From Ignavibacteriaceae bacterium (GTDB taxonomy: Bacteria; Bacteroidota; Ignavibacteria; Ignavibacteriales; Ignavibacteriaceae), in assembly GCA_013359345.1 (NCBI GenBank), contig JABWCA010000008.1, positions 1 through 47,721 of the forward strand: 47,721 nucleotides of DNA, given 5' to 3'. Made by a program: the position numbers and the translations under genes. Below, piece by piece: positions 4,504-47,518 of the stretch. The notes under the pieces are model-generated. The model searched no databases. It was given only the letters and a program-made list of their open reading frames with translations, and was not told the origin of the DNA. Position 1 is the first letter of the stretch. The number at the start of each line of letters is the position of its first letter.

Positions 4504-5901
4504 TTACTTAATCAGCATCATTCTTTCTGCCAGACGGACTGATCCCGCCTTCAGGACATAAAGGTAAACTCCCGATGCAAAGTTATTCATGTTTATTGCC
4601 ACCCTGTGTGTGCCCGCTTCAAAATACCCTTCTGCTGCGGTTAAAAGCTTCTGACCGCTGATGTTGTAAACGGCCAGCTCTGCCCTTTCGGCCTGCGGGA
4701 GCGAGAACACGATATTGGTTGAGGGATTAAAAGGATTCGGGTAGTTCTGCATCAGTTGATATCCCGAAACCGGAGCAGGATCATATTCATTCACAGAAAC
4801 CGGCACATCGGGCAGCAGTCTTGCAAACGGCCCGCCTGTCATTCCCACATCATTTCTGAGTGTTCCCAATGAGGGAAGCATGGGAACCCCCGGTTGTATA
4901 CCTGCCACATCCATAAATGTCACACCTGAATCGCCCGCATCCACCACAGGGGACCCCGGTGCAGGGTAATAGTTCACAGGGTTAAGCGCAGGATCCATAT
5001 CAAAATTGCCTCTTCCCGCAAATCCGCCCTGAACATCATTATATGTCACCGATGCTGAAGACGACTGTCTGAGCTGTATCTGAGGATATGCGGGCGCAGT
5101 GTTTCCGCGCACTATGTTGTTTTTAATGACCCCCTGCTGATTCCAGAAAAGGATTCCGCCCGGGGCTTTTAAAGATGAATTGCTGATGACAGTGTTATTT
5201 ATAACCACGGCATTTGTGCCTGCATAAGCCCATATACCTGATCCGCCGTAATCATCACCGCCTGAGTTGTAGGCTATCAGATTATTGTATATTTCGGCTG
5301 AAGTATAATTAAGCACTATTCCTGCGCCGTATCTGCCCTTATTATTAACAATAATGTTGTTGAGAATCATAGGATTGCCGCCATCCATTCTCATTCCGCC
5401 GCCGCCGGCACTCACACCGCCCGTTCTGTTAAGGGCCTCATTCTCTCTTATTATATTGTACATTATCACAGGGGAAGAATTTTCCATAAGGATGCCGCCC
5501 CCCTCCCTGTAATAGCTCCCGATATGATTATCAAGCCAGAGAGTCCCTTTGCCGCCTGTGAGGGTGAATCCGGTTATCATGGTGGTGCGGTCTTCACCCG
5601 ATATCATCAGAACGCATGATGCAGTATCGGGATGACGGGGCTGAGATCCGTTTATAATCGTGTTTTTGATATCATCAAAATTTCCCGAGATAATAAAGTT
5701 GCTTGCAAGGGTGATCTTTTTCCCGAGGAGATTGAGATTTTCAAAATAAGTGCCGGGTGATACAAGAACCGTGTCACCATCAGCGGCTGCCTGAATTGCA
5801 TCCTGAATTTTTGCATAATCAAGCGGCACCTTTATTAAGGTCTGCGCTCCGGCAACTGCCGGAATCATTATCAGCATTACTGCCAGAAGAATGTGTTTCA
5901 T
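4504..5901 (-). CDS. Secreted right-handed beta-helix protein with T9SS sorting domain
   Basis: A 465-residue secreted protein. The start is placed at ATG 5901, which begins a clean signal peptide (MKHILLAVMLIMIPAVAGAQ) with GGAG six bases upstream. The open frame runs to 5976, but the extension is not signal-like and contains the predicted promoter box. After the signal comes 'IQDAIQAAADGDTVLVSPGTY', the typical opening of parallel beta-helix (pectate-lyase-like) folds. It is followed by N-rich coils such as NNIIVNN, NNLIAYNS, NNTVISN and KNNIVRGN. No lyase or hydrolase catalytic residue can be assigned. The C-terminus carries the T9SS sorting domain (QLMQNYPNPFNPSTNIVFSL ... GVYLYVL ... MMLIK), so it should be exported through type IX secretion. 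Confidence 0.9.
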   Translation of the reverse strand: MKHILLAVMLIMIPAVAGAQTLIKVPLDYAKIQDAIQAAADGDTVLVSPGTYFENLNLLGKKITLASNFIISGNFDDIKNTIINGSQPRHPDTASCVLMISGEDRTTMITGFTLTGGKGTLWLDNHIGSYYREGGGILMENSSPVIMYNIIRENEALNRTGGVSAGGGGMRMDGGNPMILNNIIVNNKGRYGAGIVLNYTSAEIYNNLIAYNSGGDDYGGSGIWAYAGTNAVVINNTVISNSSLKAPGGILFWNQQGVIKNNIVRGNTAPAYPQIQLRQSSSASVTYNDVQGGFAGRGNFDMDPALNPVNYYPAPGSPVVDAGDSGVTFMDVAGIQPGVPMLPSLGTLRNDVGMTGGPFARLLPDVPVSVNEYDPAPVSGYQLMQNYPNPFNPSTNIVFSLPQAERAELAVYNISGQKLLTAAEGYFEAGTHRVAINMNNFASGVYLYVLKAGSVRLAERMMLIK

Positions 5902-5921
5902 ATTTTCTCCGTTTTTTTGTG

Positions 5922-5929
5922 CAAATCTA
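5922..5929 (-). promoter_or_regulatory. TAnnTTTG -7 box of the beta-helix gene
   Basis: TAGATTTG on the minus strand, 20 nt upstream of the ATG at 5901. No -33 TTTG is seen at the usual distance. It supports the downstream start codon, because it would otherwise lie inside the coding region. Confidence 0.4.
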
Positions 5930-6104
5930 CTGAAACGGGGGTGGGCGGGTCGTCCTGTTTCATGAATCAGAACCATTTTTTTGTATCACCGGAAAAAAGC
6001 GGGGTCTGAACGGAATAAAACTTTCTGAATGATTCTTAAATTGCCGTTAATTCAATTAAAGTTTATTTTACACGACAGATCATCTGATACAGAAAGGAGT
6101 TTTT

Positions 6105-21742: not shown

Positions 21743-22225
21743 TTATTTTTTCCCGATGAATGTTTTGCCGTCTTCGCTGAGATTTTTGAGATATTTTTCA
21801 GGATCTTTCTGGAATTTTTTATCGCAGCCGGGGCAGCAGAATGCATAGACTTTGCCTTTGTATTCAACTGTGGGGCCTTCGGCGTCAATTTCATCTCCGG
21901 CAACAGGGCAAACTGAATTAAAAATCACTTTAGCCTGAGCTTCAGTGTTTTCTTTATCTGTGCAGCATGATTTGCCTTCACCGCAGCAGCCTTTATCAGA
22001 TTTATTTGTGCAGCATGATTTATCCTCGCAGCAGGGTTTCTTTTCCTCGCAGCATTTTTTGCCTTCGCCGCAGCAATTTTCTTTATCAGCGCAGCATGCG
22101 TTTTTCATGCCTTCATGGTTTTCTTTTTTGTTTTTATCCTCAGAGTGGTGCTGAGCATAAGATACCGTGCTTCCTGCAATGAAAAGGAATAAAAACACGG
22201 ACGCGATTTTGATTAAGTTAAGCAT
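21743..22225 (-). CDS. Cysteine-pair-rich exported YHS-domain protein
   Basis: A 160-residue protein: signal peptide to about residue 25 (ending SYAQ), a low-complexity metal-binding-like region (about 44-95) with seven adjacent Cys-Cys pairs separated by Lys/Glu/Gly-rich spacers (NACCADKENCC, KKPCCEDKSCC), then a YHS-like domain (about 103-150: CPVAGDEIDAEGPTV ... VYAFCCPGCDKKFQKDPEKY). YHS/TRASH cysteines bind copper and other soft metals. The ATG overlaps the CusA stop by 8 nt, with GGAGG six bases ahead, so translation is coupled to the pump. A periplasmic copper or silver sponge or chaperone feeding the pump is inferred. I know of no characterised protein with this exact architecture. 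Confidence 0.88.
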   Translation of the reverse strand: MLNLIKIASVFLFLFIAGSTVSYAQHHSEDKNKKENHEGMKNACCADKENCCGEGKKCCEEKKPCCEDKSCCTNKSDKGCCGEGKSCCTDKENTEAQAKVIFNSVCPVAGDEIDAEGPTVEYKGKVYAFCCPGCDKKFQKDPEKYLKNLSEDGKTFIGKK

Positions 22226-25200
22226 TTAATGCCTCCTTTGGGTTTTGTTGGTTTGTGAAGTTTTCAGATAATTTTTTTACTTCTTTTTGTTTCATAAGAT
22301 AATAGACTGCGGGCCAGACCAGCAGTTCAAGCAGAAGGCTTGAAAAAATTCCGCCGGCCATTGGCGCAGCAATTCTTTTCATTACATCGGAGCCGGTGCC
22401 CATTCCCACAAGAATCGGGAAAAGGCCGAGAAAAGTTGTCATAACCGTCATAATTTTGGGTCTGATCCTCTTTACGGCTCCCTCATAAATCACTTCTTTA
22501 AGGGCTTCAAGACTGATAAGCCTTCCCTGCTTTTTATACTTTTCATAGGCTATATCGAGATAAAGGAACATTATCACGCCGGTTTCGGCATCGACGCCGA
22601 GCAGGGCAATGATTCCCACCCATACAGCCACGCTCATGTTAAAACCCGCAAAATAGAGATACCAGATTGCCCCCACCACCGAAAACGGGAGAGCTGCAAG
22701 AATCACCGCAGATCTGGTCATTGATTTTGTGTTCATATAAAGCAGGAACATTATGATCAGGATCGTGAGCGGCAGAATAAGGATAAGCTTCTCATTTGCG
22801 CGCTGAATGTACTCATACTGCCCGCTCCAGACTATGGAATAGCCTGCAGGTAGTTTAAGCTCCTCTCTTATTTTATTCTGAGCCATTTTAAGGTATGTGC
22901 CGAGATCGGTTCCTTCAATGTCAACATAAACCCAGACGTTGGGTTTTGCGTTTTCGCTTTTGATCATATCCGGGCCCTTCTCAAAAAAGATATCAGCAAC
23001 CTCCGATACGGGTATATTGCCGCCTGAAGGGAGCGGTATAATAACTCTTTCAAGCTGTTCAACATCAGAACGGTAATCTCTCTGATATCTCACATTCACA
23101 GGGTATCTTTCAAGACCCTCAATTGTCTGGGTGATATTCATTCCGCCAAGAGCCGACATCATGACATCCTGAACATCCTCAACACTGAGGCCATATCTTG
23201 CGAGCTTGTCTCTCTTTATGGCATAGTTGATATAATTGCCGCCGAGGTTTCTTTCTGCAATCACAGATCTCGTGCCCGGTATCTTTCTTATTATTGCCTC
23301 TATTTCGGCGCCGGTCTTATCAAGCTGTGCGAGATCGGGACCCGCAATCTTAATGCCCACGGGTGTTTTTATACCGGTTGAGAGCATATCTATTCTTGTT
23401 TTAATCGGCATTGTCCAGGCGTTGGTCAGTCCCGGAATCTGAACCGCGTTGTTGAGCTCTTCAACAAGCTTATCGGGGGTCATGCCTGCCCGCCACTGAT
23501 CCATCGGCTTAAGCATGATGGTTGTCTCAATCATGGTGAGCGGGGCGGGGTCGGTGGCTGTTTCAGCCCTCCCGATCTTGCCGAAAACCGATTCGACTTC
23601 AGGGAATGATTTGATAATTTTATCGGTCTGCTGCAGGAGCTCGCCCGCCTTCGATGCAGAAATGCCCGGGAGTGTGGTCGGCATGTAAAGCAGATCTCCT
23701 TCATATAAGGGAGGCATGAATTCACTGCCAAGCTTCATGAAAGGGAGAATTGTGAGAACCGAAATAAACACTGCCCCCAGGATAACATACCATCTCTTTT
23801 CAACGACAAACCTTACAACGGGGCCGTAAACTTTCATGAGCACTTTTGTGATCGGGTGATCCTCTTCATGACGCAGTCTGCCTCTCACAAAATAATTGAT
23901 CAGCACCGGCACAATGGTCACCGCAAGAATAGCCGCGCCTGCCATTGCATAGGTTTTTGTGAATGCGAGGGGCTTAAACAGTTTGCCTTCCTGCATCTCA
24001 AGAGTGAAAACAGGCATGAATGACACAGTGATAACCAGCAGAGAGTAAAAAATTGAGGGTCCCACTTCCTTTGATGATTCAAGAATCACGGCAAGACGCG
24101 GTCTCTTTTCATTCTCAGGCTTCTCCTGCTCCTCCTGCAGTTTGGTATGCGCATTCTCAACCATCACAATTGATGCATCAACCATGGCTCCAATTGCAAT
24201 TGCAATGCCGCCCAGCGACATTATATTGGCGTTTATACCCTGCAGCTTCATTATAATAAATGAGATCAGCACGGCAGTGGGGAGTGTGAAAATTGCCACA
24301 AGCGAACTGCGCACATGGAGAAGAAATGCAATTATAACAAGAGCCACTATCAGGGTTTCTTCAAACAGCTTGTCTTTAAGGTTATCAATTGCACTCTGGA
24401 TCAGTTCCGCACGGTCATACGCCGGGAGAATCTGAACTCCCTCAGGGAGTGATTTTTTAAGCTCCTCAAGCCTGTTTTTCACCCGCTCAATCACTGCCGG
24501 TGCATTTTCACCGAATCGCATAACAATGATTCCGCCCACGGTTTCACCTTCACCGTTCCAGTCAGCTATACCTCTTCTTAACTCCGGGCCTTCTTCAATG
24601 TTCGCAATGTCTTTCAGATAAACAGGAGTGCCGGCTGATGACATGCCGCCACCCATTGATCCTTTGCCTGATGCCGGCATTATGGCAATCTGCTCAATAT
24701 CATTTTTTGACTGCAGATAGCCGGTTGCCCTGATCATATACTCTGTTTCGGCAAATTCAACCAGCCTGCCATCGGCGTCATTATTGTTCATCTTAAGCGC
24801 ACCGGCAACATCTTTAAGGGTGATGCCGTATGACGCAAGTTTCACGGGATCAACATTAACCTGATACTGTTTTACAGAGCCGCCCACCGAGGCAACCTCA
24901 GAAACTCCTTCAAGCGCAGAGAGTTCATAGCGCAGAAACCAGTCCTGAATTGATCTGAGTTCTTCAATTGAGTGACGGTCTGACTGCAGAACGTACTGAT
25001 AGACCCAGCCGAGTCCCGTGGCATCAGGTCCGAGCGTGGGGCTCACACCGGGCGGCAACTGACCTCTTATGGAGCTGAGATACTCAAGAACTCTGCTCCG
25101 CGCCCAGTATATATCCGTTCCCTCCTCAAAGATGATATAGATCATAGAGTAGCCGAATGAAGAGTATCCTCTCACATCTTTGGCGTAAGGAACCGAGAGC

Positions 25201-25442
25201 ATTTTGGTGGTCAGAGGGTATGTAACCTGATCTTCAACCACTTTGGGGCTTTGTCCCGGATAATCAGTATAAATGATCACCTGAACATCGCTCAGATCGG
25301 GAATTGCGTCAATGGATGTATTCTGAACAGCCCAGATACCCGCACCAATGAGCCCCAGGGTGAACAGGATCACAATGACCCTGTTGCTCAGGCACCATTC
25401 TATCACCGCATTTATAACTTTATTTTCTTTTACTGATTCCAT
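22218..25442 (-). CDS. cusA: CusA-type Cu(I)/Ag(I) efflux RND pump
   Basis: A 1074-residue inner-membrane proton-driven pump of the heavy-metal RND family. Twelve transmembrane segments in the usual RND layout; TM4 carries IAIAIGAMVDASIVMVEN with the proton-relay Asp at 422. The three methionines that bind Cu(I)/Ag(I) in E. coli CusA (M573, M623, M672) are matched by M587 (LLYMPTTLPGIS), M637 (LTMIETTI) and M686 (RIDMLSTGIKTP), with identical spacings of 50 and 49. That argues for monovalent copper or silver and not zinc or cobalt. A Gly/Met-rich insertion (about 259-271) in a porter loop is absent from E. coli CusA as I recall it. It lies 10 nt after the adaptor gene. Confidence 0.96.
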   Translation of the reverse strand: MESVKENKVINAVIEWCLSNRVIVILFTLGLIGAGIWAVQNTSIDAIPDLSDVQVIIYTDYPGQSPKVVEDQVTYPLTTKMLSVPYAKDVRGYSSFGYSMIYIIFEEGTDIYWARSRVLEYLSSIRGQLPPGVSPTLGPDATGLGWVYQYVLQSDRHSIEELRSIQDWFLRYELSALEGVSEVASVGGSVKQYQVNVDPVKLASYGITLKDVAGALKMNNNDADGRLVEFAETEYMIRATGYLQSKNDIEQIAIMPASGKGSMGGGMSSAGTPVYLKDIANIEEGPELRRGIADWNGEGETVGGIIVMRFGENAPAVIERVKNRLEELKKSLPEGVQILPAYDRAELIQSAIDNLKDKLFEETLIVALVIIAFLLHVRSSLVAIFTLPTAVLISFIIMKLQGINANIMSLGGIAIAIGAMVDASIVMVENAHTKLQEEQEKPENEKRPRLAVILESSKEVGPSIFYSLLVITVSFMPVFTLEMQEGKLFKPLAFTKTYAMAGAAILAVTIVPVLINYFVRGRLRHEEDHPITKVLMKVYGPVVRFVVEKRWYVILGAVFISVLTILPFMKLGSEFMPPLYEGDLLYMPTTLPGISASKAGELLQQTDKIIKSFPEVESVFGKIGRAETATDPAPLTMIETTIMLKPMDQWRAGMTPDKLVEELNNAVQIPGLTNAWTMPIKTRIDMLSTGIKTPVGIKIAGPDLAQLDKTGAEIEAIIRKIPGTRSVIAERNLGGNYINYAIKRDKLARYGLSVEDVQDVMMSALGGMNITQTIEGLERYPVNVRYQRDYRSDVEQLERVIIPLPSGGNIPVSEVADIFFEKGPDMIKSENAKPNVWVYVDIEGTDLGTYLKMAQNKIREELKLPAGYSIVWSGQYEYIQRANEKLILILPLTILIIMFLLYMNTKSMTRSAVILAALPFSVVGAIWYLYFAGFNMSVAVWVGIIALLGVDAETGVIMFLYLDIAYEKYKKQGRLISLEALKEVIYEGAVKRIRPKIMTVMTTFLGLFPILVGMGTGSDVMKRIAAPMAGGIFSSLLLELLVWPAVYYLMKQKEVKKLSENFTNQQNPKEALNA

Positions 25443-25452
25443 GATATCACCG

Positions 25453-26979
25453 TCACTTAACTTTATAACCGTGTTCTCTCAGGTTACTTTTAGCCTGGTC
25501 AACGGTGTATTCTTTCAGTTTCATTTCGCATATATGGCAGCGTCCTTTTTCATCAGCAAGCACATCCCAGTCCATCGGGCACTGGAACACCGTGCCGTCC
25601 TTGTTTTTATCAAACGAAGCAACATCAACTCCCTCTTTTTCAGGCACTTTATTTTCGGGAGCATCTGCTGAGTGCTGATGTGTGTCAGAACCTGCGGCTT
25701 TTCCTGTGCCCCCTTCTTTTGAAGGGGTTGCAGGCATACTGCCGTGATTGTGTTCACCACCCGACATAAACTTATTGAGCGATGCTCTCAGATTACTTTC
25801 TGAATCAATAAGGAACTGAGCCGAGTTAACAACAACATCGTTTTCTTCAAGCCCCGAAAGAATCTGATAATAACCGTCGGAATATTCACCCAGCACAACC
25901 TCAGCAGGCCTGAACTTGCCGTTACCCATGGAGCGGATAACAACATTTCTTTTACCGCTTCTTATTATTGCATTACTTTCAAGGGTGAGCACATTGTTTA
26001 ATCCGTTATGAACTATCTCAACCTCAGCAAGCATGTTGGGTTTAATCTGCAGCCCTGCATTTACCAGTTCAACCCTCACCTTTGCGGTTCTGGATGATTC
26101 AGTGAGCAGCGGATCAATAAAAGTGACTGTTCCGGCAAATTCACTGTTTTTTATCCCGTTGATTTTAACTTTTGCCGCATTTCCAACCCTTATCTTGCTC
26201 AGTTCATTTTCATAAATATCGGCTATAACCCACACCTGAGAAATATCAGAGAGCCTTAGAACGGGCATTCCTGCATTAATCATCTGTCCCTCAACGGCAT
26301 CTTTCATGGTCACTATCCCGTTATAAGGGGAGTAATACGGAACTGTGTTGAGAATCTCCCCTGATTTTTCGAGCTTTTTAAGTTCCTCATCAGGAAACTG
26401 AAGAAGTTCAAGTTTTCTGACCGCCGCTTTGAGCAGATCCTGATTCTGTGAATTTTTGTAATGCTTAAGCGCCGTGAGATATTCCTGCTGGGCGGTTATG
26501 AGCATCGGCGAATAGATCTCAAAAAGCTTTTCACCCTTTGAGACTGATTTGCCCGTATAGTCAGCATATAATTTCTCTATCCATCCTTCATAACGGGTTG
26601 AGATAACATATTCTTTTCTCTCATCGGTTTTCACAACGCCGTTAGTGGTTATTGAAGGGGCAAGACTTCTTCTCTGTACTTTGGTTGTCTTCAGATTCAT
26701 CATCTGCTGAACCTCAGGCATTATTTCGACCACATCCCCGTCCTGACTTCCGCTTTTCATCGGGGTCAGCTTCATCTCACATATAGGGCAGTTTCCCGGT
26801 TTATCAGAAATGATCTGAGGATGCATACCACAGGTGTAGAGAGTTTTTTCGCCTGAATCTGATGATTTTTCGGGCATACCGTAAATCAGCAGATAGGTTA
26901 TCGTAAATATCACTGCCGCAATCAGCACTGCCGCTGCGGGATAAATATACTTTTTCATTTTAATACCATTATTTACCAT
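25453..26979 (-). CDS. cusB: CusB-type periplasmic adaptor with two heavy-metal-binding domains
   Basis: A 508-residue membrane-fusion protein linking the RND pump to the outer-membrane channel. N-terminal membrane anchor (about 10-34), then a heavy-metal-binding domain at 48-72 (YTCGMHPQIISDKPGNCPIC), the hairpin, lipoyl and beta-barrel domains (TTNGVVKTDERKEYVISTRY ... VEGQMINAGMPVLRLSD ... VWVIADIYE), and a His-rich linker (GGEHNHGSMP, DTHQHSAD). It ends in a second metal-binding domain at about 465-489 (FQCPMDWDVLADEKGRCHIC). Two such domains at opposite ends are unusual. The first ATG overlaps the TolC-like stop (ATGGTAA); an alternative ATG at 26958 gives a shorter N-terminus. Confidence 0.94.
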   Translation of the reverse strand: MVNNGIKMKKYIYPAAAVLIAAVIFTITYLLIYGMPEKSSDSGEKTLYTCGMHPQIISDKPGNCPICEMKLTPMKSGSQDGDVVEIMPEVQQMMNLKTTKVQRRSLAPSITTNGVVKTDERKEYVISTRYEGWIEKLYADYTGKSVSKGEKLFEIYSPMLITAQQEYLTALKHYKNSQNQDLLKAAVRKLELLQFPDEELKKLEKSGEILNTVPYYSPYNGIVTMKDAVEGQMINAGMPVLRLSDISQVWVIADIYENELSKIRVGNAAKVKINGIKNSEFAGTVTFIDPLLTESSRTAKVRVELVNAGLQIKPNMLAEVEIVHNGLNNVLTLESNAIIRSGKRNVVIRSMGNGKFRPAEVVLGEYSDGYYQILSGLEENDVVVNSAQFLIDSESNLRASLNKFMSGGEHNHGSMPATPSKEGGTGKAAGSDTHQHSADAPENKVPEKEGVDVASFDKNKDGTVFQCPMDWDVLADEKGRCHICEMKLKEYTVDQAKSNLREHGYKVK

Positions 26980-28841: not shown

Positions 28842-28922
28842 CTTTTTTTTATGAAAATTGAATCCGTGATTGCAAATATTTGACAATCACCTTTGTCACT
28901 TTAAGCTGTGGAGCAACGTGGA

Positions 28923-31900
28923 ATGCGCAATACATTGAGGAAAAATTTTACCATCATTATCTACACGGTTTCCGGACTTTTACTGGTTTCCTTTTTCCTT
29001 TATAATTTTGCGATGATGCGTTATGAGTATCACAAATCTGAAACAGAAAGGGTGCTCTCACAGAATTCTGCGGTCAAGATAAGAATAATAGAAAATCAGA
29101 TAAATGAAAAACTGGGGGATATTACTCTCACCGGTGGTGATTCACGTCTTCTCAATGCAGTAAATGAGGTGAATTCAGGGAAAATGCTCAGTAATGCATC
29201 TGTGAAAATTCTCACTGAAATTGCTGAAACAGAAAAAATTGAAAACATTACATATGTCTCTGCTGATATGAGCAGGATTGTAACCCTTGCAGGCAAAACA
29301 GAAAAAACTGACACCGCACTTCTCAGAAACCTTTTAAATGAAATTCCTCCCCACATTCAAAGCATTTGTGCAGATCCCGATTTACATTCAGAATCAAGCT
29401 TCAGGCATCTTCATTTTGTCAGGAAACTGATAAGTGAAAACGGGGTTAATTCCGGATATATCATTTTCCATTTTGAGATAAACTCAGTGTTTCCTGAAAT
29501 ATTTGAATTTTATTCAAATGAATATCACGCAAATGAAATGTTCCTGGTTATCGGTGATCAGAACATGGTGCATTATTCGGGCAAAAATCATTTTTACTTC
29601 AGCATAAACACCACGCCCGGCAAAAAGTTTGCGGGCATACTTGCAGCCGAGGGTAAAACCGGATTTTATGAAACGACTGATTTCAGGGGGGAAGAGGTTT
29701 TTGCCATGATCTCAGATATACCCTCGCTGAAGGCTAATCTTCTTGTGCTGCTTAAAAAATCGGAGGCTGCGGCCGCATACAAAAGCGAACTGATAAGTTT
29801 TGCCATACTGCTTTCAGGCGTTTTACTCGCCTCATTCTTCGGATATATGTATCTCTCAGCCAGAAACAGAAGAAAACTGAATGAGACTGAAAAGGAAAAA
29901 AAATTCATTCTCCAGCAGTTTGAGTTTGTATCAAACTTCTCAAATGAAGCCATTCTTTTGTTTGACGGCAACTTTAAGCTGCTTTATTCCAATCATAAGA
30001 TATCTTCTTTTTTCAATATTACTCATACTGCTCTCAGAACTCACCTGCTTGGAGCGCTTTATCAGAAAATCTCAGGTATCCCGCTTGATTTCAGCACACT
30101 CGAAAGCAAAAAAATAGTCTCATCCGAAACTGAAGTGACATCAGCAGCAGGTGAACCCCTGTTTCTTGAGATTACCTGCAGAAAGATCAGCAATAACATC
30201 AACACCATTTTTCACCTGAACATAAAGGATATCACCGAAAAGAAAAAATCATTAAAAGACCTTGAGAATTCTGAAAAGCGTTACAGAGAACTGACAGAAA
30301 CTATGTCAGATTTTGCATTCTCGCTGAGGATAGATGCTTCAGGCAAAATAAAGCTGGAGTGGATAACCGAATCTTTTGACAGAATTTCAGGATACACCCG
30401 TGATGAACGTATCCGGAATGAGGGCTATCTGTACCCTGTTGAAAGCGATGATCTTGAGCTGTTCACATCAAGGATGACTACAGCTGCCGGCGGCAGATCT
30501 AATCTTGAAACAGAAGTGAGACTGACAACTAAATCGGCTGAAACCAAATGGGTAAAGCTTTCCGTCAAGCCTGTCTCAGAGATTACTCCGGGGGGTGAAG
30601 TAAGGATTCTCGGACTGGGCAGGGATATCACGGGTGAGAAGAGACTCCTTCTTGAAGTTGAAGAGAATTCAAAAAAGATTGAGCTTATCTTTGAAAATTC
30701 ATTTGAAGCCACTTTGCTTGTTAAGGATCAGCAGATTGAACTCGTGAACAGGTCTCTCCTTAAATTATTCGGATACAGTGATCCCGCCGAAATATTAAAC
30801 AAACCGGTCACAACTATCGTTGCCGAAAAACACCGGAAGCTTATCACTGCTTACCTGCTGAAACGGGCTTATGCCGATTCGCCTCATACCACATATTTTG
30901 CGCTCGGGCTGAAAAAAGACGGCTCGCAGTTTGAGGCTGAACTGTCAATTTCCCATTATTCTGTGGGGGTGGAGAAATATCTGATCGTGATGATCCGTGA
31001 TATCTCAGTGAAGCTTGCAACCGAAAAAAGAATAAGGGAGAGCGAGGAAAAATACCGCACGCTGGCTAATCAGGTGCCTGTGGGCATTTACAGAATTAAT
31101 ACTGCAGGTGAGCTGCTCTATTTTAACAAAACTTTTGGTGAGCTCTTTAAGTTGGGGTCGCAGACCACTGCCATCCGGACCCTCAATCTGGCTGATATGT
31201 ATGATGACAGCTTCATACTTGAAATAAAACTGAAAAAAATTGCCTCAACGCGTGATGTTTATTCAGGCGAAACCGTCATGAAGAAATCAACCGGTGAAAA
31301 CATTTATGTGAAAGAAAAAGCGTCCGGCATTTTTGATGATGCCGGCAATCTGCTCTATATTGACGGAATTATTGAAGATATCACTGAATTCAAAAAGACT
31401 ATTGATAAGACCATAGCAAATTATCAGCTTTTCAGAACGGTCTGGGATAACACCCGTGAAGGATTCAGGCTAACTGACGAAGACGGTAAAATAGTTATGG
31501 TCAATAAGTCATTCTGTGAATTGTTTTCGATGAAACAGAATGAACTTACCGGGCAGCTCTTTAATATCTGCTACAAAAACACTGAAGAAAAAACAATTTC
31601 AAAGTATAAAGAAAGATTCATGAAACGGGAAATCCTGCCCGAATTTGAAGTTGAAGTGCAAATCAGGAACGGTGATGTGAAATGGATGGAAATCTCAACT
31701 TCATTTATTGATCTTGAGAGCAGCAGGCCTCTTCTTCTTACAATTTTCAAAGATTCAACTGAAAGGCAGAAGGCGCTGGAGCTCCTTAAACAGAATGAAC
31801 TCCGATTTAAAAATCTGGCTGTCACACTGCCGGTAGGCATACTTATTTACAATAAGGAGAAAAAAGTTATCTTCTGCAATGATACTGCCACACACATATT

Positions 31901-33833
31901 CAGACTTTCTCAGGATCAGATTAACGGCACCTCTTATACAGAGCGGTATTCTGCGGTTTATGACTCAAAAGGGAATAAAGTTTCTTATGATGAATTCCCC
32001 ACCGCATTGGCATTCAAAACGAAAAGCAGCGTGATTAACAATGAAATTGGCATTATAGTAAAAGGGCAGGATGAACTCAAATGGCTGAAGGTAAATGCGA
32101 TTCCGCAATTTGATTCTGATGAGAACATTGAGGAAGTGGTTGTTGCCATTGATGATATAACAAAAGAGAAAAACACGATAGATGAGATCCGTAAACTGAA
32201 AATGGGTATAGAGCAAAGCCCTGTGTCTGTTGTTATCACTGATACCACCGGTTCAATTGAGTATGTAAACCCGTTCTTTTCAGAGGTTACCGGCTATTCA
32301 CTGAGTGAAGCCATCGGGAAAAATCCGTCCATTCTGAAATCAGGCTTTCAGAGTGAGGAAATTTACAGACACCTCTGGACAGAAATATCCTCCGGAAAAG
32401 TATGGCGCGGAGAACTGCAGAACAGGAAAAAGAACGGGGAGATTTACTGGGAAAGCGTCTCAATATCCCCCATACGCGATGAGGATAACATAATAACCCA
32501 TTACGTTGCTGTAAAAGATGACATAACCGAACAGAAGAAATCTGCTGAGGAACTCCTTCTTTCTAAAAACAACCTGCTTGATAAGCTTAAGAAACTGGAG
32601 CTCATACAAAGGATTTACTCCAAGTTCTCTCTTAATACTGATGTCAGGGAGATTTTCACCGGGATTAACGAGCTTCTGCCTGATTATTACTCGTGTGATT
32701 TTGCAGTTATAAAACTGGAGGATCCCGAGACCAGGAAGTTATACGGGGTTGAAAGATTCGGATTAAGCGGCGATGCCCGCTTCAATAAAGTTTCAGCCAT
32801 TCTTGGTGAATTTGAAAAAGAGTGTTTAAACAGTGATAAGCCGGTTATTATTGATGACCCTGCATCAGGGGATTTCCTTCCGGGAGAATATGTTACGGGG
32901 CTCGAGCTCAAAGCCCTTGTTCTTCTGAAGATCAGATATAAAAATGATCCCATAGGTGTGCTTGAAGTATTTTATACTGAAAGAGAATTTGTCCTGAGAG
33001 CCGATGACATCGAATTTCTTAATATGGTGGCAAATCTTCTCGGAATTCTTCTTGCCAATGCCCTCTCATTTGAAAATCTGAAGGATATTCAGAATAACCT
33101 GATTCTTGCAAAAGAGAGAGCAGAGGAGATGAACAGGATTAAATCAACCTTCCTTGCAAACCTGAGCCATGAGCTCAGAACTCCGCTGATCAACATCATC
33201 GGGTATGCTGAAATAATCATGGATTCGATTGAAGAGGATGAAGAACTTAAGATGATGGCCGATTCGATCCTTAAAGGAGGAACAAGGCTCAAAGACACAC
33301 TTAACTCCCTGCTTGAGCTCTCTAAACTTGAAGCCAATGCCTTTAATCTTAATCTTGTTGAGGTTAATGTTGAGAAGCTGATTGATGAAGCCGTTTCAAA
33401 AAATGCCCACAAAGCGGAAGAAAAGGGTCTTTATATCAATAAAGACTGTGTGGTCTCAAATCCGCTTGCCCATTCTGATGTCGTGATGCTTGAGAGCATT
33501 ATTGAACACCTGATTTCAAATGCTATCAAATACACTGAAGAGGGGGGAGTGAGTCTTGAATTGTATGAAAAAGTCGTGCGGGGTGAAGAATGCTTCATTC
33601 TCAGGGTGAGTGATACGGGAATAGGCATATCACCCGAAAATCAGACAAAGATATTTGAAGATTTCAGGCAGGCAAGCGAAGGGTATGCACGTCAGTATGA
33701 AGGCGCCGGCATCGGACTTACCATTGTAAGCAAATACTGCAAAATACTCAGAGGCACAATTGAAGTTGAAAGTGAATCCGGGGTTGGCAGCGCTTTTACC
33801 GTGACAATTCCCAGAACACCTAAAAGTTACTGA
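28923..33833 (+). CDS. Giant membrane sensor histidine kinase with seven PAS and one GAF domain
   Basis: A protein of about 1636 residues. ATG 28923 is preferred (GGAG nine bases upstream); a GTG at 28908 also opens the frame. Two membrane helices near residues 8-28 and 292-312 enclose a sensor domain of about 260 residues, probably extracytoplasmic. Then come seven apparent PAS modules, most closing with a PAC-like I-T/S-E-x-K phrase (DITEKKKSLK, DITGEKRLL, DISVKLATEK, DITEFKKT, DSTERQKAL, DDITKEKNT, DDITEQKKSA). A GAF-like domain follows, then HisKA with His at about 1416 (FLANLSHELRTPL) and HATPase (IEHLISNAIKYTEEGG, VSDTGIGIS, GAGIGLTIVSKY). No receiver domain and no adjacent response regulator: an orphan by position, divergent from the copper efflux operon. 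Confidence 0.94.
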   Translation: MRNTLRKNFTIIIYTVSGLLLVSFFLYNFAMMRYEYHKSETERVLSQNSAVKIRIIENQINEKLGDITLTGGDSRLLNAVNEVNSGKMLSNASVKILTEIAETEKIENITYVSADMSRIVTLAGKTEKTDTALLRNLLNEIPPHIQSICADPDLHSESSFRHLHFVRKLISENGVNSGYIIFHFEINSVFPEIFEFYSNEYHANEMFLVIGDQNMVHYSGKNHFYFSINTTPGKKFAGILAAEGKTGFYETTDFRGEEVFAMISDIPSLKANLLVLLKKSEAAAAYKSELISFAILLSGVLLASFFGYMYLSARNRRKLNETEKEKKFILQQFEFVSNFSNEAILLFDGNFKLLYSNHKISSFFNITHTALRTHLLGALYQKISGIPLDFSTLESKKIVSSETEVTSAAGEPLFLEITCRKISNNINTIFHLNIKDITEKKKSLKDLENSEKRYRELTETMSDFAFSLRIDASGKIKLEWITESFDRISGYTRDERIRNEGYLYPVESDDLELFTSRMTTAAGGRSNLETEVRLTTKSAETKWVKLSVKPVSEITPGGEVRILGLGRDITGEKRLLLEVEENSKKIELIFENSFEATLLVKDQQIELVNRSLLKLFGYSDPAEILNKPVTTIVAEKHRKLITAYLLKRAYADSPHTTYFALGLKKDGSQFEAELSISHYSVGVEKYLIVMIRDISVKLATEKRIRESEEKYRTLANQVPVGIYRINTAGELLYFNKTFGELFKLGSQTTAIRTLNLADMYDDSFILEIKLKKIASTRDVYSGETVMKKSTGENIYVKEKASGIFDDAGNLLYIDGIIEDITEFKKTIDKTIANYQLFRTVWDNTREGFRLTDEDGKIVMVNKSFCELFSMKQNELTGQLFNICYKNTEEKTISKYKERFMKREILPEFEVEVQIRNGDVKWMEISTSFIDLESSRPLLLTIFKDSTERQKALELLKQNELRFKNLAVTLPVGILIYNKEKKVIFCNDTATHIFRLSQDQINGTSYTERYSAVYDSKGNKVSYDEFPTALAFKTKSSVINNEIGIIVKGQDELKWLKVNAIPQFDSDENIEEVVVAIDDITKEKNTIDEIRKLKMGIEQSPVSVVITDTTGSIEYVNPFFSEVTGYSLSEAIGKNPSILKSGFQSEEIYRHLWTEISSGKVWRGELQNRKKNGEIYWESVSISPIRDEDNIITHYVAVKDDITEQKKSAEELLLSKNNLLDKLKKLELIQRIYSKFSLNTDVREIFTGINELLPDYYSCDFAVIKLEDPETRKLYGVERFGLSGDARFNKVSAILGEFEKECLNSDKPVIIDDPASGDFLPGEYVTGLELKALVLLKIRYKNDPIGVLEVFYTEREFVLRADDIEFLNMVANLLGILLANALSFENLKDIQNNLILAKERAEEMNRIKSTFLANLSHELRTPLINIIGYAEIIMDSIEEDEELKMMADSILKGGTRLKDTLNSLLELSKLEANAFNLNLVEVNVEKLIDEAVSKNAHKAEEKGLYINKDCVVSNPLAHSDVVMLESIIEHLISNAIKYTEEGGVSLELYEKVVRGEECFILRVSDTGIGISPENQTKIFEDFRQASEGYARQYEGAGIGLTIVSKYCKILRGTIEVESESGVGSAFTVTIPRTPKSY

Positions 33834-42698: not shown

Positions 42699-45600
42699 AT
42701 GAAGAAGACAGCAATAATATTTTTTCTGTTAATCCCTGTATTTTCAATACTGCCTCAGGCTGATTCAGTAATCAGTATGGCAACACACGTTCAGCGTTAT
42801 ATTTCACTGCTTCCTGACAGTGCTGCTGCAAATCAGAACCAGTATCAGACACCATCAGCCGAAGATTCACTCACTTTTTACCAGTGCGTTAAATTGCTTC
42901 TTGACGGCAGTTACGCGGCTGCTCTCGATTCCGCAGGCAAAATAGGATATACTGTTTTCCGTGTCACCGATAACAGTTATTCCGCAACCAGAGTGTATTA
43001 TGTGCTTGAGAGAGTTTCAGGCTCAAGGCACTGGGGTGTCTTTATATACAACCCAACCCCGCAGCGTCCCGGACTTTTCATTCAGGCCCCTCATCCTCTT
43101 TATGATTTTAACACAGGAAGGCAGGGTTTTTATGTATTCAAGAAAAGCGGGGCAGAAGCGTTTTATTTTTCCGGAACCCACCGGTGCAATCAGACAAGTT
43201 ACACAAACTGCGACGGAACAACCACAGCTTGCGTTGGCGGAAATCAGGCATACAGATTATCTGACCAGGCGCATACTACGGTGGGACCTCTTCAGATAGC
43301 CACAAAAGCCATGCTTGACAATAACGCCGGCCTTATCGTGATTCAGCTTCACGGATTCTCAAAAACTGACGGTGACCCCCACGTCATTATGGGAAACGGC
43401 ACAAAATTCACCCCTTCGGGCACCGACCATCTGATTGATCTCAGGGATGCACTTTACACTCTGCGAGATACTCTTACCTTTAAGGTATCACACATAGACA
43501 CAAGCTGGACCCGCCTGACAGGAAGCGTAAACACACAGGGAAGACTGATAAACGGGAGTTCAGACCCGTGCGATATCAATCCCAACAGCGCCACCGGCAG
43601 ATTCCTTCATGTTGAGCAGATGAAAGAAGGAATGAGAGATACAGAGACCGGCTGGAAAATTATGGCAGATGCTGTGAGAATGGCTTTCCCGATAGTTACC
43701 AAAACCGGCGGAAACTGGGGAACCACAACCAACTGGCCGGGTGACATTCTGCCTGATACCGTTGATAACGTGAAAATCGCGGCCGGACACACAATGACCG
43801 TTAACACCGCAACCGATAAATGTTTTAACCTCTCGTTTGAGAACAGCACATCAAAAATTGCATTTTCCGGCTCCGGGACCCTCAGTGTTTACGGAAACGT
43901 CTCCCCTTTCAGCAGTTCTCATGATATGATTTCATCATGGGCTAACGGTGGAGTGCTTAAATTCACCGGCGGTGCAAAACAAACAATCTCCGGTTTCGGG
44001 GCATCATCAGCCAACTATAAAACCCTCATGGCTGTTGAAATTGATAAATATAAGGACAGTATTAAAACGGACGGTACCGGTATGGTGCTTCCTCTTGGCA
44101 GTTCACTGACTGTCACCCGCGGAACATTTTATCTTGCATCAGGAGATGATATTGAGGGAAAATCACTTGACGGCAGTTCATCAGCAACGCCGGTAATAAC
44201 CAATGCCACTGCCGGTACATTTGCCATGGAAGGTGGCGAAAGCTTCATAAGAAGCGGGAACAGCGGCTCTGCTCAGACAGGGGCTTTTACCGTTAACGGC
44301 ACCGCATCGCTGGCATCTGCATCATCAACAGGAATTAATCTGGCATCTGTAAGTGTTGAATCGGGCGGAACGCTGAACCTTTCCTCAATGGGAAACGCAA
44401 ATTTTAATCCCGGTACACTTACCGTGAAAGCGGGAGGAACGGTGAACAACAACTCCGGCGGATCGTTCTGGAACGGATCAGCCTCATTAGTTCTGCAGTC
44501 AAAAAGCACCTGTAAAGTAAACACAGCCACAACCGTTTTCCCTTCGTTATTTACAAATAACGGAAACATTGATTACGCCATGAACGGTGATCAGACCATT
44601 GCTTCAATATCATATTCCGGGTTGAAGGTATCCGGAACGGGAGATAAATCATTCACCCAGGATCTCTCTGTGGCAGATTCAATAGAACTTGCCGGCGGCA
44701 ATCTTACAGGGGGAGGATTCACAATAACACTCGGCACATCTGCAGCTTCAACAGGAAAAATGACCAGAACATCCGGCAGGATTATTGGTAATCTTAAAAG
44801 ATGGATAGCTGCTTCAGTTTCATCAGATATTCTTTTCCCCTTGGGCACTGCAGCTTTTTACCGTTCGGTTGATCTTGATTTCACATCAGCACCCTCAACG
44901 GGGGGAACACTCCTTTCGTCATTCACAGCGTCTGATCCCGGCGATAACGGACTCCCGCTCGATGACGGCGGAACCTCAATTACAAATTCTGCCGCAGACG
45001 GCTACTGGATCGTTACTGCAGGTGACGGCCTTGCAGGAGGTACTTACACGATGAGACTCACCGCCGAGGGTTTTTCAGGCATCAATGATTACACCACTCT
45101 GCGTATCCTGAAAAGATCAAACGGCGGAAGCTGGAGCCTTGACGGTTCTCATCTTACGGGCACCGGTTCCAATTCGGTTCCGGTGATAAGGAGAAGCGGA
45201 CTTACAGGGTTTTCTGAATTTGGCATTGGCTCCGGTAATGATAACCCGCTGCCTGTAGAATTATCCCTTTTTAATGCTTCCGTAAAGGGAAATAATGTTG
45301 TTCTGAACTGGGAAACCCAGATGGAACTGAATTCTTTCAGCTTTCAGATCGAAAGAAAAAGAACCGAAAAGGAAAACTGGGAGAATCTCGGGACTGTAAA
45401 AGCATCATTTAACAGCAGTTCTCCTAAAACTTATTCTTTCTCAGATAAATATCTTGCCCGCGGCAATTACTTTTACAGACTTAAGATGATTGATACAGAC
45501 GGTTCTTTTGAGTATTCTGACGTGATAAAAGCTGACATCTCACTCCCCGCGGGGATAGTGCTGTATCAGAATTATCCCAATCCGTTTAACCCGTCAACCA

Positions 45601-45812
45601 GCATCAAGTTCATTGTGAACACGGCTTCAGAGATTTCTGTGAATGTTTATGATGTGACCGGGGGGCTTATCAGTGAAATTGCAAAGGGTGAGTACCAGCC
45701 CGGAACCTACGATGTCAGGTTCGATGCTTCCGGACTGGCGGGAGGTGTTTATTTCTACTCTGTGGAAACCGGAGATTCAAAAGAGATTAAAGTGATGACT
45801 CTTCTCAAATAG
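42699..45812 (+). CDS. Large T9SS-secreted protein with amidohydrolase-like N-terminal domain
   Basis: A 1037-residue secreted protein. Signal peptide to about residue 20. Residues about 25-330 form a globular domain with His/Asp motifs: QAPHPLYDFNTG (His 132, Asp 136), FSGTHRCNQ (His 161), LIVIQLHGF (His 218) and FLHVEQMKEGMR. These recall zinc-dependent N-formylglutamate amidohydrolase-like or poly-gamma-glutamate hydrolase-like folds; the assignment is tentative. Residues about 335-800 are a Gly/Ser/Thr-rich beta-solenoid (GGNWGTTTNWPGDILPDTVD, repeated N-G-x-I strands), then a fibronectin-like domain (NPLPVELSLFNASVKGNNVV) and the T9SS sorting domain (QNYPNPFNPSTSIKFIV). The enzyme head would be displayed or released outside the cell. 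Converges on the CotH gene with 20 bp between. Confidence 0.85.
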   Translation: MKKTAIIFFLLIPVFSILPQADSVISMATHVQRYISLLPDSAAANQNQYQTPSAEDSLTFYQCVKLLLDGSYAAALDSAGKIGYTVFRVTDNSYSATRVYYVLERVSGSRHWGVFIYNPTPQRPGLFIQAPHPLYDFNTGRQGFYVFKKSGAEAFYFSGTHRCNQTSYTNCDGTTTACVGGNQAYRLSDQAHTTVGPLQIATKAMLDNNAGLIVIQLHGFSKTDGDPHVIMGNGTKFTPSGTDHLIDLRDALYTLRDTLTFKVSHIDTSWTRLTGSVNTQGRLINGSSDPCDINPNSATGRFLHVEQMKEGMRDTETGWKIMADAVRMAFPIVTKTGGNWGTTTNWPGDILPDTVDNVKIAAGHTMTVNTATDKCFNLSFENSTSKIAFSGSGTLSVYGNVSPFSSSHDMISSWANGGVLKFTGGAKQTISGFGASSANYKTLMAVEIDKYKDSIKTDGTGMVLPLGSSLTVTRGTFYLASGDDIEGKSLDGSSSATPVITNATAGTFAMEGGESFIRSGNSGSAQTGAFTVNGTASLASASSTGINLASVSVESGGTLNLSSMGNANFNPGTLTVKAGGTVNNNSGGSFWNGSASLVLQSKSTCKVNTATTVFPSLFTNNGNIDYAMNGDQTIASISYSGLKVSGTGDKSFTQDLSVADSIELAGGNLTGGGFTITLGTSAASTGKMTRTSGRIIGNLKRWIAASVSSDILFPLGTAAFYRSVDLDFTSAPSTGGTLLSSFTASDPGDNGLPLDDGGTSITNSAADGYWIVTAGDGLAGGTYTMRLTAEGFSGINDYTTLRILKRSNGGSWSLDGSHLTGTGSNSVPVIRRSGLTGFSEFGIGSGNDNPLPVELSLFNASVKGNNVVLNWETQMELNSFSFQIERKRTEKENWENLGTVKASFNSSSPKTYSFSDKYLARGNYFYRLKMIDTDGSFEYSDVIKADISLPAGIVLYQNYPNPFNPSTSIKFIVNTASEISVNVYDVTGGLISEIAKGEYQPGTYDVRFDASGLAGGVYFYSVETGDSKEIKVMTLLK

Positions 45813-45832: not shown

Positions 45833-47518
45833 TTATTTCATCAACATCAGCTTGCTGACTATTCTTTGAACAGTTCCGTTGTTATTGTTAAGCGTTATCA
45901 CGGCAAAGTAAACTCCGGCAGCAAAACTTTGCCCTGAGAGGTCAATCCTGATCAGATGTTTACCTTCTTCAAGATAACCGTCATAAAACTCACCCGTTTC
46001 CTCACCCGCTGAGCTGAAAAGCTTTACCTTAAGCTGACCCGCACCGGGTAACGTAACAACCATGTTTGCTGAGGGGTTAAAGGGATTCGGGTAAGTTTCA
46101 GCGATAATCATGTCCACGGGCAAAGGCTCCTTTTCTGATACATCCGTGAACTGATTGATGGCATTATTCATCCAGAGGAATCTGCCGTTGATCCAGTTCT
46201 TAAAGTAATTCAGTTCATCTTCCCAGGTCTGACCCACATAAGGATTGGGCCACACATACTGCCCGAGCACTGGCCACTTCTGGAAATTTCTCTGCCTTGC
46301 CTCATTAAGATATGCCGTGAGTGAATCTATCACCCCGAAAATCCTGTCTTTATTAAATGCGGTTGTTTTAAGGAGATTCCACCGTTCTTTCACCGTTGAA
46401 AGAAACCTCGGAGAGTTTCTCAGCTTCTTCCACCAGAACGGCACCTGAAACTGATCGGTTGTAAGAAAGTTCTGATCGGTTGTAAGCACATCAAGCTCCC
46501 ACCAGGTCATTGGTGCACCCGAATAATAATTTGCATTGCCGAACGCTATGTTAAAATCCCAGACAGGCCCCATGACATATTTCGGGTTTCTGCTGTCACG
46601 GTCTTTATAAAAGAATGAGCTCAGCCTGTATGCATCCACATTTTTTGCAAATTCATTTATCAGGAAAAAATCAGCGAGGGAGTTCTCATCCGTCCATTTG
46701 GGATAACCATACTCCGGATCATCAAAGAGAACCGAATTCATTATGTTTTCAAAATTCGTATAGTGATTTCTGATGTAATCCTTCTGCTGCTGAACAATGG
46801 ACGAAGGCTTGGGTATATGGTACTGAACCAGAATGGGAAAAGGGGAACCCGGATAAGGCGGATACGGTGATGTCCACCAGAGATTATCTTCACCGTCGGT
46901 CTTGTCAAACTTCAGAATGTACCCGCCGGTCAGCGCATCACCTGTGGTGTCTTCAGGATCCATTTTCTTGATATCAACTCTGTTTTTATCGTTTTTGAGC
47001 TTCTCCATTATTATGTAAATACCAACATATTCACCGTTGAGCACAAGCTCACAATAGCGCGTTCTTGAGGCGTATCTTCCCGTTGCCCTTGCAATATCAT
47101 AGGCCATAACATCCCTCATAAGGGTCTTGTCATTATATGTGGCGTTCAGAATCCAGTCGGCTTCAAGAGGCATTCCAAGCAGAGAAACATCCAGATCCTC
47201 GCCCGAAGTATCCCTGGTTTCAAATCCGTAAGGTTTCTTGGGAAACATCTGAGATGATGAGCCTCTCAGCTCAATTCCAATCTTACCATCGTAGTGATTA
47301 AAGGGATCTGTTAAATTATTGCGCACTCCCGGGCCGTTGTAAATAATCCCCATATCGGCTGTGATTTTGTAATCATCAGGGATTATCTGGCCGTTTGTGT
47401 TGATCACCACTATCGGAAGGTTTGATGAGGTGAACTGCTGTGATCTGATCTCTGACAAAGGTGTCAGGAAAATAAGTGTTGCGATACCGCAAATGATAAA
47501 TCCGGCAATCTTTTTCAT
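45833..47518 (-). CDS. CotH-kinase-family secreted protein with T9SS sorting domain
   Basis: A 561-residue secreted protein. Signal peptide to about 27 (ending IRSQ). The central domain (about 35-430) is of the CotH family: KIGIELRGSSSQMFPKKPYG, ADWILNATYNDKTLMRDVMA, YCELVLNGEYVGIYIIMEKL, then GPVWDFNIAFGN, which holds the catalytic DFN of CotH protein kinases. In Bacillus and related proteins this fold phosphorylates secreted or spore-coat proteins. The C-terminus carries the T9SS sorting domain (AETYPNPFNPSANMVVTLPG ... GVYFAVI ... KLMLMK). The substrate is unknown; the neighbouring secreted proteins are obvious candidates only by position. Confidence 0.93.
   Translation of the reverse strand: MKKIAGFIICGIATLIFLTPLSEIRSQQFTSSNLPIVVINTNGQIIPDDYKITADMGIIYNGPGVRNNLTDPFNHYDGKIGIELRGSSSQMFPKKPYGFETRDTSGEDLDVSLLGMPLEADWILNATYNDKTLMRDVMAYDIARATGRYASRTRYCELVLNGEYVGIYIIMEKLKNDKNRVDIKKMDPEDTTGDALTGGYILKFDKTDGEDNLWWTSPYPPYPGSPFPILVQYHIPKPSSIVQQQKDYIRNHYTNFENIMNSVLFDDPEYGYPKWTDENSLADFFLINEFAKNVDAYRLSSFFYKDRDSRNPKYVMGPVWDFNIAFGNANYYSGAPMTWWELDVLTTDQNFLTTDQFQVPFWWKKLRNSPRFLSTVKERWNLLKTTAFNKDRIFGVIDSLTAYLNEARQRNFQKWPVLGQYVWPNPYVGQTWEDELNYFKNWINGRFLWMNNAINQFTDVSEKEPLPVDMIIAETYPNPFNPSANMVVTLPGAGQLKVKLFSSAGEETGEFYDGYLEEGKHLIRIDLSGQSFAAGVYFAVITLNNNNGTVQRIVSKLMLMK

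Follow-up and report, generated by a model that had tools for sequence, protein, structure and literature searches.

A protein family without a library name, with a predicted PghP-like fold and a probable role in poly-γ-glutamate hydrolysis, at the head of a putative type IX cargo protein of Ignavibacteriaceae

Poly-γ-glutamate is a slimy polymer that envelops some microbes. Within the carboxypeptidase/N-formylglutamate-amidohydrolase superfamily, the substrate of N-formylglutamate amidohydrolase (PF05013) is a small molecule of histidine breakdown, and the M14 zinc carboxypeptidases (PF00246) use HxxE as their zinc motif. Among the hydrolases of the polymer itself, PghP and PghL (YndL; PF05908) are the closest described counterparts of the protein treated here: according to the PghL study (PMC6506827), zinc is bound in PghL by His41, Glu46 and His102, Glu165 is equivalent to carboxypeptidase A Glu270, and polymer binding is ascribed to His77, Thr79, Ser80 and Arg171. 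In 11 phage sequences, His40, Glu45, His78, Thr80, Ser81, His103, Glu165 and Arg171 are invariant. The gene that we compare with these enzymes is a 1037-aa open reading frame (42699..45812, + strand) in a stretch of 47,721 nucleotides from an Ignavibacteriaceae bacterium (contig JABWCA010000008.1 of assembly GCA_013359345.1), called the window below. It encodes a signal-like start, a head of about 315 residues, a β-solenoid, a linker and a sorting tail of type A for the type IX secretion system (T9SS); residue numbers are those of the full-length protein. We conclude, with a probability of roughly 0.7, that the head (residues 21–337; 42759..43709, +) is a surface-displayed poly-γ-glutamate hydrolase, the polymer being its presumed substrate and zinc its presumed metal.

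The head belongs to a protein family without a name in the libraries searched, whose mode of action is probably PghP-like and which is not PF05908 by sequence. Residues 21–337 retrieved nothing meaningful from Pfam, NCBIfam, PHROGs or the PDB sequences; a single PHROGs match (E 0.4) and a single, chance-level PDB match (E 0.9) were rejected, and the profile of our main alignment, A2, matched no PDB chain. A2 contains 75 rows, namely the window protein and 74 relatives, 10 partial frames out of 84 matches having been omitted, so that locus L031 and others are missing from the tree; a second, more diverse set has 12 rows and includes plasmid-borne relatives. Scanned singly, the 75 members of A2 gave only scattered weak matches in Pfam (24 families at E ≤ 1, best 0.0088; PF05908, PF05013 and PF00246 are not among them) and weak matches to 4 families in NCBIfam. 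The AlphaFold2 model of the head, built on A2, has a mean predicted local distance difference test score (pLDDT) of 94.8 and a predicted template-modelling score (pTM) of 0.94, and the fold that it predicts is very probably that of a zinc hydrolase. Foldseek found 20 solved chains at E ≤ 0.001, mainly carboxypeptidases, REP34 and bacterial metallopeptidases. VIA-align 2 was run on 1000 Foldseek chains; among the best 50 of these 1000, the top ranks include 2odf (Z 13.2, 3.0 Å, 176 aligned residues), the N-formylglutamate amidohydrolase 2q7s (Z 12.9, 3.0 Å, 184 aligned), phage PghP 3a9l (Z 11.5, 4.3 Å, 176 aligned), the PM1 hydrolase 21dc (Z 11.3, 3.5 Å, 167 aligned) and PghL with bound polymer, 5onj (Z 10.9, 3.7 Å, 171 aligned), and next come amidases, M14 carboxypeptidases, desuccinylases and leucyl aminopeptidases at Z 9.9–10.7. 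In the PghL study, 2odf and 2q7s are also the Dali hits of PghL that follow PghP (PMC6506827). Among viral predicted structures, the second-ranked is a Bacillus phage poly-γ-glutamate hydrolase. A sequence-only reading of the gene had proposed an N-formylglutamate-amidohydrolase-like zinc site in the head; the predicted fold agrees with this proposal, with PghP/PghL following at Z 10.9–11.5, and membership in the corresponding sequence families is not borne out in any of the 75 members.

The motifs from which that reading had started, PHPLYD (residues 131–136; 43089..43106, +), THRCN (160–164), QLHGF (216–220; 43344..43358, +) and VEQMKEG (305–311), are all present, and their conservation, as judged from the aligned sequences, is far above chance. 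Nine residues are invariant in 75/75 rows of A2: His132, Arg162, Asp189, His218, Gly219, Asn233, Asn278, Glu306 and Arg313. Position 136 is Asp in 72 rows and Glu in 3, and His192 and His304 are found in 73/75 and 74/75, respectively. In the 12-row set, His132, Arg162, Asp189, His218, Asn278, His304, Glu306 and Arg313 are still invariant, with His161 kept in 11/12 and His192 in 9/12. Asp136, the SDxxH motif (SDQAH, residues 188–192; 43260..43274, +; Asp189 and His192) and Arg313 are additions to the residues listed at first. The metal trio initially put forward, His132, His161 and His218, stands for its first and last members; His161 (43179..43184 with Arg162, +) was rejected as a zinc ligand, being His in only 67/75 rows; since Ser (4), Asn (2), Gln (1) or Tyr (1) replaces it in 8 rows, it probably does not bind metal in the family. 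On the same alignment, Asp136 is a better candidate for third ligand than His161. The metal set is thus likely His132, Asp136 and His218, with Glu306 as the catalytic residue and Arg313 as a substrate-binding one (His304, Glu306 and Arg313 at 43608..43637, +), judging from conservation and from the likeness to PghP/PghL; Arg162 is probably located in the active-site pocket, where we presume that it plays a role.

More specifically, the head and PghP/PghL share the same order of residues: His132-x3-Asp136...His218 is collinear with the PghP-type zinc triad His-x4-Glu...His, differing in spacing and in the acid, HGF replaces what is mostly HGY, and the distance from Glu to Arg is +7 versus +6. 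The putative ligands His132 and Asp136 would be the counterparts of PghP His40/Glu45 and of PghL His41/Glu46, as numbered in the PghL paper (PMC6506827), and His218, the putative third metal ligand, that of PghP His103; Glu306 and Arg313 would correspond to PghP Glu165 and PghL Arg171, and His192 possibly to PghP His78, the profile alignment being weak. The strand ends in the AlphaFold2 model fit this assignment, since His132 comes just after strand 123–130, His218 lies in strand 213–220 and Glu306 in strand 302–308.

The candidate substrate is suggested by gene neighbourhoods. A scan of named genomes provided 79 family loci, whose neighbour frames were clustered before the cluster representatives were scanned. 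In L029, the gene order is γ-glutamyltransferase (TIGR00066), PgsB (TIGR04012), PgsC (TIGR04011), TIGR04332 and the family gene, with all four matches above the curated cut-offs and the TIGR04332 gene (poly-gamma-glutamate system protein) running into the family gene. A Chroococcidiopsis plasmid carries pgsB (323 bits), pgsC and then the family gene. PgsB also lies near the family gene, above cut-off, in L042 (260 bits), L031 (G045, 4.0 kb away) and L048 (G014, 6.5 kb away), and, below cut-off, in L028 (107.7 bits) and L097 (193.4 bits). Note that L029, L031 and L048 coincide with the places in genomes G028, G045 and G014, respectively, and were not double-counted. The head is found at E ≤ 0.001 in 15 of the 97 genomes scanned from this family and order, own genome included; PgsB is above cut-off in 9/97, of which four have the head (G014, G028, G036 and G045), three of them within 7 kb on one contig.

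PgsB, PgsC, TIGR04332, γ-glutamyltransferase or racemase-like genes occur in 25/79 loci versus 0/40 controls, which were random 10.9-kb stretches from four family-carrying genomes (Fisher P 9e-6); with the amidohydrolase added to these classes, the counts become 41/79 versus 1/40 (Fisher P 1e-8). The amidohydrolase, which we take to be D-glutamate deacylase-like, is near the gene in 23/79 loci and matches PF01979 and PF07969 above their cut-offs and NF006560 below it (193 bits, cut-off 340). Racemase-like genes occur in 17/79 loci (8 + 9, by best label). SusD-like genes, identified as PF12771 in 3/3 genes scanned, are present in 25/79 loci versus 2/40 controls (P 9e-4), and many Flavobacteriaceae relatives are among these. 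Placing the four Pgs-linked rows on the tree takes four changes, the same number as with shuffled labels, so that these rows are scattered over four separate places; the window protein sits in a well-supported 13-row clade with two Pgs-linked rows, two rows linked to γ-glutamyltransferase only and two racemase-linked rows, both from L026. Altogether, the gene neighbourhoods lend support to the polyglutamate substrate guessed in the sequence-only reading. As a separate observation, apparently exported, lipoprotein-like racemase-like proteins adjoin the family gene (L090:3853-4869, L030:3010-4551 and similar); they score below the NCBIfam cut-off, the best match of the L030 protein being TIGR00067 (94.7 bits, cut-off 146.65), and the 17 racemase-linked genomes have two to four TIGR00067 matches each, with one above cut-off, an ordinary racemase, in 16/17. 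To our knowledge, racemases are seldom located outside the cytoplasm.

These same racemase-like, amidohydrolase and γ-glutamyltransferase genes would also be expected if the head cut γ-D-glutamyl bonds of peptidoglycan stem peptides or turnover fragments instead of free polyglutamate and its neighbours recovered cell-wall D-glutamate. N-acetylmuramoyl-L-alanine amidases are indeed found among the structural neighbours of the head (7rag, Z 10.7; 4rn7, Z 10.4), the relative in L048 carries an M23 peptidase domain, and the gene of the Corynebacterium relative is part of a phage-like block and precedes one for a peptidoglycan endopeptidase. However, polyglutamate-type PgsB, PgsC and TIGR04332 adjoin the family gene at separate places in the tree, and N-formylglutamate amidohydrolase and PghP/PghL outrank the amidases, although the Z gaps of 1–3 are modest; we consider a role in peptidoglycan turnover unlikely.

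It is also improbable, in our estimate, that the head is an extracellular metallopeptidase, carboxypeptidase- or deacylase-like, which acts on ordinary peptide or protein ends for nutrient scavenging. Many M14 carboxypeptidases come out at Z ~10, the window gene adjoins a T9SS subtilase, and M14-like genes are near the family gene in 11/79 loci versus 0/40 controls, but the head has neither the M14 HxxE motif nor, in 75 members, a PF00246 match, and polyglutamate-type neighbours occur in several lineages. That the head has kept the fold as a non-catalytic domain for polymer binding or adhesion is very improbable since, despite the long β-solenoid, the surface sorting and the adhesins among the structural neighbours of the solenoid, the expected catalytic residues (with Asp/Glu at 136) are invariant in 75 sequences, which binding alone would not need.

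Several observations weigh against the assignment of the head as a poly-γ-glutamate hydrolase. Foldseek TM-scores are low, 0.31–0.39 of the query across the 20 matches, and profile comparison with PghP (hhalign) gives a probability of 0.6% for A2 and, for the 12-row set, the same register as PghP at a weak 13% (P 0.002). Kinship with PghP thus rests on the predicted fold and the collinear residues rather than on profile statistics. As for the genetic linkage, 5/9 PgsB genomes are without the head and 11/15 head genomes without PgsB above cut-off; no polymer or glutamate class, amidohydrolase included, is found in 38/79 loci, 20 of which are full-length (at least 10.5 kb); SusC-like genes are not enriched (14/79 loci versus 7/40 controls, P 1.0); and the control test is partly circular, with classes picked for recurrence, models built from the test loci and loci that are interrelated. 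The window gene itself is flanked by a T9SS-tailed subtilase and by a CotH kinase protein, with no polymer or SusC/SusD genes as neighbours, and the best pgsB match in its genome (99.44% complete) scores 27 bits for a cut-off of 222.7. With no PgsB above cut-off, the organism would not make the polymer and could cut foreign polymer. A like pattern is reported for PghP-type hydrolase genes, which outside Bacillales are mostly without pgsB (PMC4497714). In the same genome (G000), the head is present in a single copy, PF05908 and PF05013 genes were both not found, and there are one γ-glutamyltransferase and one glutamate racemase.

We propose that the head belongs to the carboxypeptidase/N-formylglutamate-amidohydrolase superfamily as a zinc-dependent hydrolase that would cut the γ-amide bonds of poly-γ-glutamate outside the cell, presumably in an endo mode. 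Zinc would be held by His132, Asp136 and His218, Glu306 would activate water or attack the bond, and the polymer carboxylates would be bound by Arg313 together with Arg162 and His192. Export would proceed through Sec at the inner membrane and through the type IX system at the outer membrane, with sorting of the protein via its tail, and the enzyme would be carried on the β-solenoid. Relatives encoded beside synthesis genes may release or trim their own polymer, those accompanied by SusD-like genes, the amidohydrolase, a seemingly exported racemase-like protein or γ-glutamyltransferase may use the polymer as food, and the protein of the window organism, which is without pgsB above cut-off, would act on polymer from others. 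More tentatively, and at what we judge to be slightly less than even odds, Bacteroidota and related phyla may possess dedicated poly-γ-glutamate utilisation loci. In these, usable glutamate would be obtained from the D/L-glutamate polymer by a surface hydrolase of the family, SusD-type uptake and the lipoprotein that belongs to it, an amidohydrolase that is itself a lipoprotein, an apparently exported racemase-like lipoprotein and γ-glutamyltransferase; on this view, the hydrolase would also have been recruited into synthesis operons, orphan T9SS enzymes on a solenoid stalk and a phage tail protein. The analysis offers a probable substrate and chemistry for a family that spans Ignavibacteria, Flavobacteriaceae, Streptomyces and one cyanobacterium. 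If it is right, poly-γ-glutamate would be a nutrient for surface-feeding Bacteroidota, and a further enzyme family could serve to remove polyglutamate capsules and biofilms; the hypothesis is directly testable on a single domain.

Outside the head, the protein starts with a putative signal peptide (residues 1–20; 42699..42758, +), a hydrophobic stretch judged by eye from the sequence. The β-solenoid module (residues 338–682; 43710..44744, +) lies in the G/S/T-rich middle of the protein and is modelled as almost all β (pLDDT 90.3), in line with the solenoid foreseen from the sequence. Its structural neighbours are adhesins, lyases and tailspikes, from Z 15.3 downward, and we take its nearest solved chains to be β-helix proteins; Foldseek alone gave no solved chain at E ≤ 0.001, and a G8 match (E 0.015, below cut-off) was rejected. 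The module matches parts of proteins in L024, L026, L031, L039, L093 and L095 at 30–41% identity. In L093, L095 and L026, solenoid proteins without a head are encoded next to genes for the racemase-like protein and the head, and the one in L024 sits between γ-glutamyltransferase and the head; the solenoid may possibly bind polymer. The region from solenoid to tail (residues 683–958; 44745..45572, +) resembles other T9SS cargo from about residue 862 and has only a PKD-like match at E 0.037. The tail is, as had been read from the sequence, a T9SS type A sorting domain (residues 959–1030; 45573..45788, +), with PF18962 at 36.8 bits (cut-off 27) and TIGR04183 at 31.9 bits (cut-off 23), and the PorU sortase is present in the genome (NF033707, 961 bits, cut-off 420). 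Elsewhere in the window, the adjacent CotH kinase protein (45833-47518, −) has a T9SS-like tail below the Pfam cut-off, and a right-handed β-helix protein with a T9SS tail (4504-5976, −) has a chondroitinase B match below cut-off. The window also encodes an RND efflux pump (PF00873) together with its HlyD-type adaptor, which bears a heavy metal binding domain (22218-26979, −), and a histidine kinase of 1641 residues that combines several PAS domains with one GAF domain (28908-33833, +).

The records of the 79 loci carry the phylum labels Ignavibacteriota, Bacteroidota, Calditrichota, Candidatus Zixiibacteriota, Chlorobiota, Balneolota and Pseudomonadota, the last for a single metagenome-assembled genome called Algicola. 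With tblastn, plasmid relatives were found in Streptomyces clavuligerus, Corynebacterium ureicelerivorans and Chroococcidiopsis thermalis (23–27% identity), and the cyanobacterial query retrieved one from Streptomyces finlayi. Many Flavobacteriaceae relatives are extended at the N-terminus by a part with a lipobox-like start, and the one scanned has FN3 (PF00041). Next to such relatives are SusD-like genes and the amidohydrolase, in some cases with the racemase-like protein as well. Two family genes occur together in L026 only, according to the domain model; the two frames of L086 fit one split gene, and a second gene in L029 was rejected, the label having arisen from the full-length model, which includes the T9SS tail. 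In L048:1255-3594, the head is fused to Peptidase_M23 (PF01551, 51.1 bits, cut-off 28.7), and L011:142-2490 reads as a similar fusion. The Corynebacterium relative is a 738-aa protein with a head domain (L186:18990-21206, NZ_CP009216.1). Its gene lies between a tape measure gene upstream and an endopeptidase gene downstream, on a phage-like plasmid that also encodes terminase, portal and capsid proteins, and the product could serve as a tail protein that cuts capsules. Viral contigs gave 23 pattern matches, of which none was confirmed, and neither the window head nor the Corynebacterium domain, used as queries, found relatives in phage records. In the open-licence literature searched, judged by title and start of abstract, no paper was found on the head family, on a T9SS poly-γ-glutamate hydrolase or on a polymer utilisation locus; the literature in print may differ.

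Compared with the SusC/SusD utilisation loci of Bacteroidota, the family shows a similar context in that many Flavobacteriaceae relatives adjoin SusD-like genes and some adjoin SusC-like TonB-dependent receptors; the difference is that SusC-like genes are not enriched, that the neighbour enzymes scanned are amide hydrolases, γ-glutamyltransferase and racemase-like proteins, and that the window gene lacks such neighbours. M14 zinc carboxypeptidases share the superfamily fold with the head (Z ~10, Foldseek E 2e-6), which has neither their HxxE motif nor a PF00246 match. N-formylglutamate amidohydrolase and its relative (2q7s and 2odf) are the closest solved folds, at Z 12.9 and 13.2, whereas the head has no PF05013 match. 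With PghP/PghL, the head has in common the predicted fold, the order of the presumed ligand, catalytic and substrate-binding residues and, in several of its relatives, a genetic tie to the polymer. It differs from them by the absence of a PF05908 match, by H-x3-D in place of H-x4-E, by the invariant Arg162 and Asp189, to which nothing evident corresponds in the PghP alignment, and by about 70 additional residues ahead of the first ligand, and the window protein appears as an exported, multidomain version with a solenoid and a T9SS tail.

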